The translations under genes and the position numbers were made by a program. The notes beneath the pieces are model-generated. The model ran no database searches. It was not told where the DNA came from and saw only the letters and a program-made list of their open reading frames with translations. Source: Flavobacterium limnophilum (GTDB lineage Bacteria; Bacteroidota; Bacteroidia; Flavobacteriales; Flavobacteriaceae). From it: a DNA stretch of 64,000 bases. The stretch spans positions 2,728,001 through 2,792,000 of the forward strand of contig NZ_CP114289.2 of assembly GCF_027111315.2 (NCBI RefSeq), read 5' to 3'. Of this stretch, positions 26,589 through 63,874 are shown one piece after another (within the stretch, counting starts at the first letter, position 1; each line of letters begins with the position of its first letter).

Positions 26589-26655
26589 AGTTGGGAGTTG
26601 GAAGCTGGGAGATGGAAGTTGTCTTCAAGCTTCCAACATCCATCTTCTAACTTAT
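26589..26655. repeat. Imperfect hairpin of the GTTGGAAG/CTTCCAAC repeat class
   Basis: TTGGGAGTTGGAAGCT on one side and AAGCTTCCAACATCC on the other fold back; the wording resembles elements at 48990-49081 and 63594-63667. It fills the gap between the FAH and exonuclease genes. Confidence 0.7.
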
Positions 26656-48989: not shown

Positions 48990-49081
48990 AAAGTTAGAAG
49001 TTGGAGATTAGAAATACGAAGTTAAAAAAAGAGTTTATAAGATGAATGTATCATCTCGTCACTTCTAATCTCTAACTTCTT
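48990..49081. repeat. Imperfect hairpin of the AAGTTAGAAGTTGGAGATTAG class
   Basis: Arms near 48990-49012 (AAGTTAGAAGTTGGAGATTA) and 49061-49080 (ACTTCTAATCTCTAACTT) are near reverse complements; the family recurs at 26589 and 63594. Confidence 0.7.
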
Positions 49082-60323: not shown

Positions 60324-60396
60324 GACTCGATAGCTCAGTTGGTAGAGCACATCACTTTTAATGATGGGGTCCTGGGTTCGAGCCCCAGTCGGGTCA
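60324..60396 (+). tRNA. tRNA-Lys (anticodon TTT), copy 1
   Basis: A 73-nt cloverleaf, GACTCGA acceptor start, CATCA-CTTTTAA-TGATG anticodon stem-loop with anticodon TTT, TTCGAGC T-loop, discriminator A, no encoded CCA. First of three in series. Confidence 0.97.
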
Positions 60397-60433
60397 CAAA
60401 ATTGTGATCAACACATAATTTTCTTGAAGCATT

Positions 60434-60506
60434 GACTCGATAGCTCAGTTGGTAGAGCACATCACTTTTAATGATGGGGTCCTGGGTTCGAGCCCCAGTC
60501 GGGTCA
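60434..60506 (+). tRNA. tRNA-Lys (anticodon TTT), copy 2
   Basis: Identical to copy 1 over the full 73 nt by eye; spacer of 37 bp. The two sequences could recombine. Confidence 0.97.
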
Positions 60507-60547
60507 CAATATAATGCGCATACGTTAAAGAATCTTGATAGTCTGTA

Positions 60548-60620
60548 GACTTGATAGCTCAGTTGGTAGAGCACATCACTCTTAATGTTGGGGTCCTGGG
60601 TTCGAGACCCAGTCAGGTCA
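60548..60620 (+). tRNA. tRNA-Lys-like (anticodon CTT)
   Basis: A diverged third copy: anticodon loop CTCTTAA gives anticodon CTT, still Lys. Differences elsewhere (GACTTGA acceptor, AATGTTG in the anticodon stem, GAGACCC T-arm) preserve pairing except for one T-T mismatch in the anticodon stem (CATCA/TGTTG). The anticodon change allows it to read AAG only. Confidence 0.93.
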
Positions 60621-60630
60621 CACAAAGAAA

Positions 60631-60670
60631 AACATAGAGACGTTGCATTGCAGCGTCTCTATGTTTTTTT
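60631..60670 (+). terminator. Terminator-like hairpin between tRNA-Lys and tRNA-Leu
   Basis: ACATAGAGACG / CGTCTCTATGT 11-bp stem with 10-nt loop and eight T. It ends two bases before tRNA-Leu. Confidence 0.85.
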
Positions 60671-60672
60671 TA

Positions 60673-60755
60673 GGCCACGTGGAGAAACGGTAGACTTGCC
60701 AGCTTGAGGGGCTGGTGCTCGCAAGGGCGTGCGGGTTCAAATCCCGCCGTGGTCA
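60673..60755 (+). tRNA. tRNA-Leu (anticodon GAG)
   Basis: An 83-nt class II cloverleaf: GGCCACG acceptor start, CCAGC-TTGAGGG-GCTGG anticodon stem-loop with GAG, long variable arm (TGCTCGCAAGGGCGT), TTCAAAT T-loop, discriminator A. No CCA. Its own promoter is not evident; it follows a terminator-like hairpin. Confidence 0.96.
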
Positions 60756-61431: not shown

Positions 61432-61450
61432 CATTATCGAAATCACAAAC

Positions 61451-61499
61451 AAAAAAAAACCGTCTCAAATTAAATTATAATTTGAGACGGTTTTTTTTG
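61451..61499. terminator. Bidirectional terminator between the 61096 gene and the TonB receptor gene
   Basis: Stem AACCGTCTCAAATT / AATTTGAGACGGTT with a short loop, an A-run before and a T-run after. Confidence 0.9.
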
Positions 61500-61515
61500 T
61501 TTGGAATTCTTGAAA

Positions 61516-63456: not shown

Positions 63457-63593
63457 TTAATAAACATTTTTAATGATAAAAATGGGAGAAAAGCATAGAA
63501 TGACCCATACCCAAACCTTTTTTCCCGAAAGTTTGATACTCGATGTACTAGGCAGGTCTCCTGGCTTGCGTCTTGTTGTTGACCTTCCCATTT

Positions 63594-63667
63594 GAAGTTA
63601 GAAGTCAAAAGTTAGAGGTCAGAAGTATTTAACTTCCAACTCCCCTCTTCCTACTTCCCACTTCCAA
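63594..63667. repeat. AAGTTAGAAGT / CTTCC simple-repeat hairpin inside the riboswitch
   Basis: Minus strand GGAAGTGGGAAGTAGGAAG ... CTTCTAACTTC folds back on itself; same class as the hairpins at 26589 and 48990. It fills the variable arm between CCACTG and ATGGGAAGG of the B12 riboswitch. Confidence 0.75.
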
Positions 63668-63723
63668 ACAGTGGTTTTGTAGATAACAACAAGCTTGATA
63701 GCTTACAGTTGCGGGTACAGCTT

Positions 63724-63805
63724 AAGATTTAGAATTTAAGATTGCAGATTCAAGATTGCAGATTTTTAAAAAACCTGAAACCAAAAAAACCTGAAACCAA
63801 AAAAA
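63724..63805. repeat. Tandem repeats inside the riboswitch
   Basis: AAGATTGCAGATT at 63738-63750 and 63752-63764 (period 14, with a diverged third unit before) and CCTGAAACCAAAAAAA exactly twice at 63774-63789 and 63790-63805 (period 16). They separate GTGAAG from CTTAAGCTG in the riboswitch. Confidence 0.9.
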
Positions 63806-63865
63806 CTTCACTCAATTCCCTTTTAATGCGGTTTTAAAATTTAAAACAGCAACCTCAATACGGCG

Positions 63866-63874
63866 GCAAAGGTA
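63866..63874 (-). promoter_or_regulatory. -7 element of the riboswitch-btuB transcript
   Basis: Minus strand TACCTTTGC matches TAnnTTTGC; no -33 TTG at the usual distance. It is just upstream of the riboswitch. Confidence 0.65.

Follow-up and report, generated by a model that had tools for sequence, protein, structure and literature searches.

Heptad repeat hairpins in two arms of a Flavobacterium cobalamin riboswitch

Introduction

Why should the cobalamin riboswitch of Flavobacterium limnophilum be 340 nucleotides (nt) long, when most copies listed for its genus span about 180 to 210 nt, and what fills the additional length? The element lies upstream of a btuB-like gene on the minus strand of a 64,000-nt stretch of contig NZ_CP114289.2 (positions 2,728,001 to 2,792,000), which was analyzed as a whole and is called the window here; positions are those of the window (Table 1) unless stated otherwise. 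Two arms of the riboswitch are filled with hairpins built from 7-nt units (heptads). Such arms recur in the genus, their classes differ between closely related species, and heptads of the same type are found elsewhere in the genomes. As far as sequence comparison can tell, we consider it likely that this is a working riboswitch controlling btuB, in which heptad palindromes occupy two permissive loops as modules that can be exchanged. Ligand binding would then persist, recombination would swap the arms, and the arms would derive from a dispersed pool rather than the pool from the arms. Riboswitch arms are, in our own reading, usually seen as a slowly drifting scaffold; here, a loop that has seven letters in a solved structure takes up hairpins of ~30 to 90 nt while the riboswitch core hardly changes.

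Two enlarged arms in an ordinary cobalamin riboswitch

The Rfam cobalamin riboswitch model (RF00174; gathering score, 31.5 bits) matched positions 63873..63534 (-) with 75.4 bits (E = 5.9e-18), covering all of model positions 1-189, and this was the single match in the 4.5-Mb genome. In the alignment, the B12 box and the blocks of the four-way junction are all present and in order, confirming the assignment made for the minus strand by a first-pass annotation, which had been based on the letters alone. The same alignment displays a long insert in L4 and leaves a further 70 positions unshown between CCACUGUUUGG and AAAUGGGAAGG. With its conserved blocks, P4, partner loops L5 and L13, B12 box, and site ahead of a btuB-like gene, the element belongs to RF00174 as an ordinary member; what is new is the pair of heptad arms. 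The size of these arms sets it apart from the crystallized adenosylcobalamin riboswitch, whose published sequence (PMC4436661) can be read as having a 7-nt L4 loop (UGCAAGU) and a second arm of ~11 nt, as opposed to 84 and 79 nt, respectively, in the window.

The P4/L4 arm measures 94 nt, compared with 17 nt usually, and the insert that accounts for this forms one composite hairpin. An exact tandem of two AAAAAACCTGAAACCA copies (63768-63799) lies on its 5' side, and a 14-nt unit, ATTCAAGATTGCAG, repeated 2.2 times at 63734-63764, makes up its 3' side. As read from the fold, GGUU pairs with AAUC and CAGGUUUU with AAAAUCUG, partly via G-U pairs, and GGTTTCAG-type heptads are in this way joined to AATCTGC-type heptads. 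The two separate tandem repeats that had been annotated in L4 both exist, but the CCTGAAACC and GATTGCAGATT repeats proved to be opposite sides of the same hairpin. Self-match at a lag of 7 nt was 0.52 in this arm, compared with 0.32 in dinucleotide shuffles, none of which (0 of 1,000) scored as high, and the whole arm folds on the RNA strand with a minimum free energy (MFE) of -21.4 (z = -3.3). Loop letters are found at both ends of the insert, namely, UGA on the 5' side (after G63811) and AAAU on the 3' side (before C63726), and we read these as the two halves of a seven-letter L4 loop, both kept and split by the insert. The earlier view that the inserts occupy arms of variable length was correct in that the P4 pairing is kept, but it was too general for L4, where the insert is located within the 7-nt loop and not merely in a variable arm.

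The second arm, for which we take "P10 arm" to be the usual label (as we do "T-loop" for L4), is 79 nt long, compared with a usual length of 8 to 23 nt. It is a GAAG/CTTC hairpin in which a tandem-repeat scan found AAGTTAGAAGTCAA repeated 2.3 times (63595-63626). Its lag-7 self-match was 0.62, compared with 0.26 in dinucleotide shuffles (0 of 1,000 as high), and its MFE was -30.5 (z = -5.5). The basic repeat unit is 7 nt in both arms, and the previously annotated tandem repeats in L4 and hairpin in the second arm were recovered.

In this riboswitch family, binding of cobalamin by the four-way junction stabilizes the contact between L5 and L13, which lowers btuB expression. In the window, CCCG of L5 (63712-63715) is complementary to CGGG of L13 (63524-63527), a candidate pairing identified by reading, and the switch most likely operates as the family does, with cobalamin promoting the L5-L13 contact and thereby reducing btuB expression.

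Long arms across the genus

The riboswitch was found in 194 of 199 Flavobacterium genomes. Parsing, aimed at all listed matches of at least 215 nt and at part of the short ones, gave 127 distinct copies, a set enriched for long copies; L008, L025, L054, L122, and L126, which are unparsed or duplicate another row, stand outside it. An arm was called long from 45 nt upward. The statistics exclude L136, which has a run of N in L4, and the second-arm counts do not include 11 rows in which that arm was unparsed. One fetched locus is identical to the window, which is excluded where 53 L4 and 37 second arms are given and included where these numbers are 54 and 38. At least 61 of the 194 genomes (about a third) carry a long arm at one or both sites, and at least 47 (46 plus the genome of the window, about a quarter) carry an arm with a 7-nt period individually significant at 1%. 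Both counts are lower bounds drawn from the matches listed, the former after removal of G164 (N run) and without G007, whose row duplicates that of F. caseinilyticum. Short relatives mostly have a P4 plus L4 of 17 nt and a second arm of 8 to 23 nt, ranging up to 40 nt below the cutoff. Both arms could be measured in 115 copies, with neither arm long in 45, only L4 in 33, only the second arm in 19, and both in 18.

The 7-nt period is a property of most long arms in the genus. Lag-7 self-match was 0.526 for the 53 L4 arms (0.298 when shuffled) and 0.576 for the 37 second arms (0.318 when shuffled), and the period was individually significant at 1% or better in 41/53 and 33/37 arms, respectively. 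Hairpin formation was also pronounced, with mean z scores of -2.87 (54 L4 arms) and -2.45 (38 second arms) and values below -2 in 41/54 and 19/38 arms, respectively.

The survey also points to where the hairpin enters L4. Most short L4 loops, which are 7 nt long in most short relatives, read GU-NN-AA-NN-C. All 65 L4 arms of at least 30 nt begin with GU after four P4 letters, and in 63 of these 65 the remainder of P4 is preceded by AAUC or AAUUC, so that both loop halves are retained. The hairpin appears to have entered between the third and fourth letters of the seven-letter loop, although the exact position is uncertain because the neighboring letters are A.

Conserved core and differing arms

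The contrast between core and arms is clearest in a close set consisting of the window and 13 relatives (14 rows; a fifteenth row, L084, is cut by a contig end). Most of the core is 96 to 98% identical over the 14 rows, with mean pairwise identities of 0.964 and 0.985 for the core segments flanking the second arm, compared with 0.584 for the L4 arm and 0.307 for the second arm. F. omnivorum and F. sandaracinum, with 95.8% identical btuB genes, have different classes of P4/L4 arm, P4 stem included, even though the two sequences agree fully over the 27 nt that precede that arm and the 56 nt that follow it; their second arm is common to both, with some changes. F. psychrolimnae, in turn, has the L4 class of F. 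omnivorum but a second arm of 15 nt, compared with 83 nt in F. omnivorum. Mapped onto a btuB tree, with arm states set by eye and some branches weakly supported, the minimum number of changes was seven for the L4 state (14 rows), four for L4 classes A and B (11 rows), and five for the state of the second arm (14 rows).

A separate observation concerns the base of the second arm: in L088, L089, L091, and L095, CCACTG is replaced by CCATTG along with GGGAAGG by GAGAAGG, a co-occurrence that might represent a paired change from C-G to U-A.

We propose that strong purifying selection acts on the expression platform and on most of the core, the permissive sites being the L4 loop and the CCACUG-GGGAAGG hairpin. 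Bacteroidota genomes carry dispersed palindromes of 7-nt units, mostly intergenic where examined. These palindromes, or some of their units, would have entered the two loops or given rise to arms there by growth, and would fold as hairpins that point away from the core, leave it free, and are tolerated. Once present, arms would be inherited, decay, get lost, or be swapped whole between strains, probably by recombination across the conserved flanks.

Two other explanations have to be considered at this point. One is that the arms grew in place, the loops being variable in length and extended by slippage in 7-nt steps and by copying between hairpin sides, with no incoming element. The 16-nt tandem of the window does resemble a local duplication, there are L4 arms of intermediate length (31 to 64 nt with P4), and some distant Bacteroidota (L185, L197, and L201) have a long L4 without heptads. 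However, slippage alone cannot produce matching inverted sides, and growth in place leaves unexplained how a sister species came to have another arm class with its own P4 stem, why arm classes are common to several clades, and why same-type heptads are dispersed over the same genomes; we consider this explanation somewhat unlikely. The first-pass annotation had similarly suggested that the riboswitch tolerates, or is shaped by, growing repeat hairpins. Tolerance agrees with the retention of most of the core, L5/L13, and P4 and with the different filling of relatives, but growth is no better visible than the exchange of whole arms, and the functional effect implied by "shaped by" is unsupported.

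The other explanation, in which the repeats are debris in a dead element, a riboswitch that has lost its function and is in decay, seems very improbable to us. Its score of 75.4 bits is indeed below the approximately 93 to 119.5 bits of the best-scoring genus copies among the listed rows, but copies of at least 320 nt score 53 to 84 bits, so that the inserts alone may be expected to lower the score. Besides the core identity mentioned above, no block is missing, and the 15 rows do not differ in the L13 hairpin. Expression has been described for an F. psychrophilum cobalamin riboswitch that precedes a TonB-dependent transporter (PMC9723704).

Dispersed heptads as a possible source of the arms

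Heptads like those of the arms are also found elsewhere in the genome. AAGTTAGAAGT occurs 47 times in the F. limnophilum genome, compared with 4 times for the reversed control, and one exact copy is located at genome position 2776991. The first-pass annotation had placed members of this repeat family at 26589 and 48990 of the window, and both were borne out as real hairpins. The first 20 AAGTTAGAAGT loci (L032 to L051) represent 11 distinct sites, mostly between frames and often near stop or start codons. GGTTTCAGGTTT was found nine times, two of them within the riboswitch, compared with two occurrences of its control; of the four other GGTTTCAGGTTT sites that were read, two are heptad arrays immediately upstream of an ATG. 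The second arm of the window is of the GAAGTTR type, a heptad type dispersed in its own genome, and three consecutive GAAGTTN heptads are present in 64 of the 199 genomes, compared with 12 for the reversed control. A strict lag-7 self-match scan of the window itself returned two runs, one of them inside a coding frame, indicating that a heptad survey needs more sequence than the window. Heptad content varies among the arms, and no fixed ends to align, of the kind expected of miniature inverted-repeat transposable elements, were therefore apparent.

Two properties of the dispersed copies are recorded here in their own right. At the 11 sites in the F. limnophilum genome, the GAAG strand tends toward the left intergenic edge and the CTTC strand toward the right one, irrespective of gene orientation. 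Folded with their flanks, the two palindromes in the window gave -45.3 on the plus and -36.5 on the minus strand (26589-26653) and -50.9 and -39.4, respectively (48991-49079).

Pairing on the RNA strand

Could the arms themselves be functional, tuning cotranscriptional folding or the response to temperature or binding a protein, with pairing selected on the RNA strand? One indication comes from the class A L4 arm (17 related rows, alignment A1, tested against a structure taken from one row), in which 19 cells were changed on both sides, compared with 6.9 in shuffled alignments (0/500 as high), and the covariation score was 0.156, compared with at most 0.053 when the structure was slid. Two weaker measures were near the shuffles, with 8 pairs changed on both sides (5.3 shuffled; 38/500 as high) and 17 further pair types (15.2 shuffled; 110/500 as high), and three of those eight pairs belong to P4, the remainder to the repeat hairpin. 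The paired changes of class A support selection on the RNA, as judged from sequence, without proving it, because the structure comes from one row and the rows are related.

Fold energies were also compared between the two strands. For the L4 arm of the window, the opposite strand folds with an MFE of only -6.9, and the difference from the RNA strand (-21.4) is outside the range of the 53 other L4 arms (-9.6 to +9.3). For its second arm (-18.0 on the opposite strand versus -30.5), the difference does not stand out from those of the 37 others (range, -15.0 to +12.2). Overall, no strand bias was seen over the 53 L4 arms (P = 0.18) or the 37 second arms (P = 0.91), so that strand asymmetry was rejected as a proof that the arms as a whole are selected at the RNA level. 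A functional role would also have to be reconciled with the 45 of 115 copies in which neither arm is long. In its favor, several named carriers have names that may point to cold habitats. On balance, such a role seems distinctly unlikely to us; the covariation and the G-U pairing of the window L4 speak for some selection on the RNA strand, and hence for arms that might also tune the switch, and the absence of overall strand bias and the many copies without long arms speak against it.

Filled arms in other lineages

Heptad L4 arms were also found in other genera of the family to which Flavobacterium belongs (at most 1/500 shuffles as high), although in this sample the long L4 arms of L171 and L173 had no significant 7-nt period. 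Outside the class of the window, in a family labeled f14, the second arms of L192 and L193 are GARTNNN heptad hairpins (lag 7; 0/500 shuffles as high). Their genomes (G296 and G322) contain 28 matches each of four consecutive GARTNNN-type heptads, compared with 0 for the control, and two of the four-heptad places listed for G296 lie in the riboswitch itself; at least one such match was present in 11 of the 14 genomes searched. In this distant family, a local repeat stock appears to have supplied the second arm independently. In the phylum sample, in which 2 of 20 loci were unparsed, L4 was short in 10 of the 18 parsed long copies.

A more far-reaching proposal, which we put forward tentatively and with some doubt, is that peripheral riboswitch loops offer docking sites to heptad palindromes that occur throughout the genome. 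In two distantly related Bacteroidota lineages, each drawing on a heptad family of its own, the second arm would have been filled independently, and L4 would have been filled in several genera of one family; arms would be traded between species and keep their pairing on the RNA strand; and a self-spreading repeat would supply new aptamer architecture. The evidence for independent filling concerns the second arm.

Evidence weighing against a dispersed origin

Several observations weigh against the view that permissive loops took up dispersed heptad palindromes as exchangeable modules. First, inside Flavobacterium, the link between the family of an arm and that of its genome is modest. Of the 8 genomes whose second arm is of the GAAG type, 6 have the GAAGTTN family, compared with 64/199 overall (Fisher P = 0.014), but so do 10 of the 22 whose long second arm is of another kind (P = 0.23 against the GAAG type), and these tests count close kin separately. 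The label behind the 6/8 count missed L071, whose genome (G005) has 58 copies, the most of all; with a looser GAAG pattern, six rows were obtained, five of them in genomes with the GAAGTTN family. GATT heptads number 66 in the F. limnophilum genome, compared with 51 for the reversed control, and with the control itself so frequent, GATT counts carry little weight. Their density was weakly related to L4 length (P = 0.047) and not related to second-arm length (P = 0.16), and the riboswitch listed for the densest genome (G056) has a normal span of 201 nt. The idea that repeat-rich genomes have long arms was rejected, the link being weak at most.

Second, not every long arm is a heptad arm. The first-pass annotation had reasoned that similarly long arms of unrelated sequence in relatives would indicate mere drift of variable arms, and the picture is mixed: most long arms in the genus have an individually significant 7-nt period, but this period failed at 5% in 8/53 long L4 arms and 2/37 second arms, and in the distant L185, L197, and L201, P4/L4 measures 36 to 61 nt without heptads, which suggests that L4 is a generally tolerant site. 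L196, the third long second arm of family f14, is not clearly a heptad arm, since lag 6 scores as high as lag 7. Third, the 70 nt of the 5' aptamer up to GGGAA are less conserved (0.816 over the 14 rows) than the rest of the core. Finally, the covariation and the G-U excess of the window L4 are hints of a possible role of the RNA strand, something not expected under pure tolerance.

Comparison with other structured RNAs and repeat systems

The enlargement was not seen in the two other kinds of structured RNA compared. Thiamine pyrophosphate (TPP) riboswitches, detected in 59 of 61 sampled genomes, span 88 to 127 nt, and RNase P RNAs, detected in 60 of 61, span 284 to 360 nt, neither with a comparable enlargement; for RNase P, seven loci were read (the six longest and that of F. 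limnophilum). In these seven, the best 42-nt segments match at 15 to 21 of 35 positions at lag 7, and the four with the highest values (19 to 21 of 35) are located entirely or for the most part in flanking sequence.

Repeats inside a cobalamin riboswitch were reported in none of the titles and abstracts of the open-licence literature searched, and the earlier suggestion that riboswitches as hosts of such repeats are undescribed is not contradicted there; repeats in a structured RNA as such are, however, known from cyanobacterial RNase P RNA. Vioque is said to have described, in 1997, short tandem repeats (STRR) in the RNase P RNA of heterocyst-forming cyanobacteria, and these are reportedly heptamers. 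Both cases involve short tandem repeats inside a structured RNA; the present one differs in concerning a riboswitch, in Bacteroidota, at two sites, with inverted hairpin arrays and with arms that differ between sister species.

Heptamer repeats of the sequence TAACTGA have been described in Beggiatoaceae, Cyanobacteria, and five Bacteroidetes (MacGregor 2015, PMC4679880). They resemble the heptads reported here in forming intergenic arrays, often just before start codons and also in some Bacteroidetes, but they are direct repeats of one unit, and the word "riboswitch" is absent from the main text of that paper. In pneumococci, the trp operon is described as having a BOX element between two T-box riboswitches (PMC3049150). 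This, too, is a dispersed repeat in a riboswitch-controlled leader with regulation apparently kept, although the element is situated between two aptamers and not within one.

The natural insertion variants described here could be used for testing how far tertiary contacts tolerate insertions, and they offer an entry to the spread of 7-nt palindromes in Bacteroidota.

Locus and neighboring features

The closest named relatives of the 646-amino-acid receptor encoded downstream of the riboswitch are Flavobacterium proteins. Beside its gene, divergent genes encode a Peripla_BP_2 protein, a short-chain dehydrogenase, and then a FecCD permease (Pfam), and this arrangement would fit a B12 uptake locus.

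Table 1. Positions in the window of the riboswitch, its parts, and related features
Feature	Position	Strand	Remarks
Cobalamin riboswitch aptamer (RF00174)	63534..63873	-	340 nt, enlarged; covariance-model match
B12 box AGCCAGGAGACCUGCC	63551..63566	-	Rfam alignment; in 15/15 rows, with ≤2 substitutions permitted
P4 5' strand UUGAG	63811..63815	-	Rfam structure line; partner CUUAA at 63722-63726; helix covaries in relatives
L4 insert, one composite heptad hairpin within the L4 loop	63727..63810	-	Fold, period, and loop comparison
L4 hairpin 5' side, GGTTTCAGGTTTTTTT, 2.4 tandem copies	63768..63806	-	100% matches; repeat finder
L4 hairpin 3' side, CTGCAATCTTGAAT unit, 2.2 copies, AATCTGC/AATCTTG heptads	63734..63764	-	Tandem-repeat scan
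P4 3' strand CUUAA	63722..63726	-	Rfam structure line
L5 CCCG, candidate kissing-loop strand	63712..63715	-	By reading; complement of CGGG in L13
Second arm, P10/P11 region, GAAG/CTTC heptad hairpin, 79 nt	63590..63668	-	Between CCACUG and GGGAAGG
P13/L13 hairpin CAAACUUUCGGGAAAAAAGGUUUG, CGGG at 63524-63527	63512..63535	-	Same sequence in 15/15 rows
btuB-like TonB-dependent receptor, 646 amino acids	61516..63456	-	Downstream of riboswitch; Pfam TonB_dep_Rec_b-barrel and Plug
GAAG/CTTC heptad palindrome, other copy	26589..26653	.	Hairpin on folding
GAAG/CTTC heptad palindrome, other copy	48991..49079	.	Hairpin on folding; holds exact AAGTTAGAAGT

Some minor observations were made around the gene. 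On the 3' side of the L13 hairpin, the segment 63475-63511 (-), reading GGTATGGGT(C/A)ATTCTATGCTTTTCTCCC, is almost invariant over 15 rows and is followed by a T-run. It contains a possible terminator stem (ATGGG/CCCAT), and a short frame that starts at its first ATG is not conserved, because L088 carries one extra base. A strong palindrome at 61438-61511, adjoining the 3' end of btuB and probably a terminator, gave weak matches to Rfam microRNA families on both strands (at about 61440-61515); since these scored under the gathering cutoff, they were taken as chance matches to the palindrome. Finally, four tRNA genes are clustered at 60324-60755 on the plus strand, the first two with identical aligned sequence.
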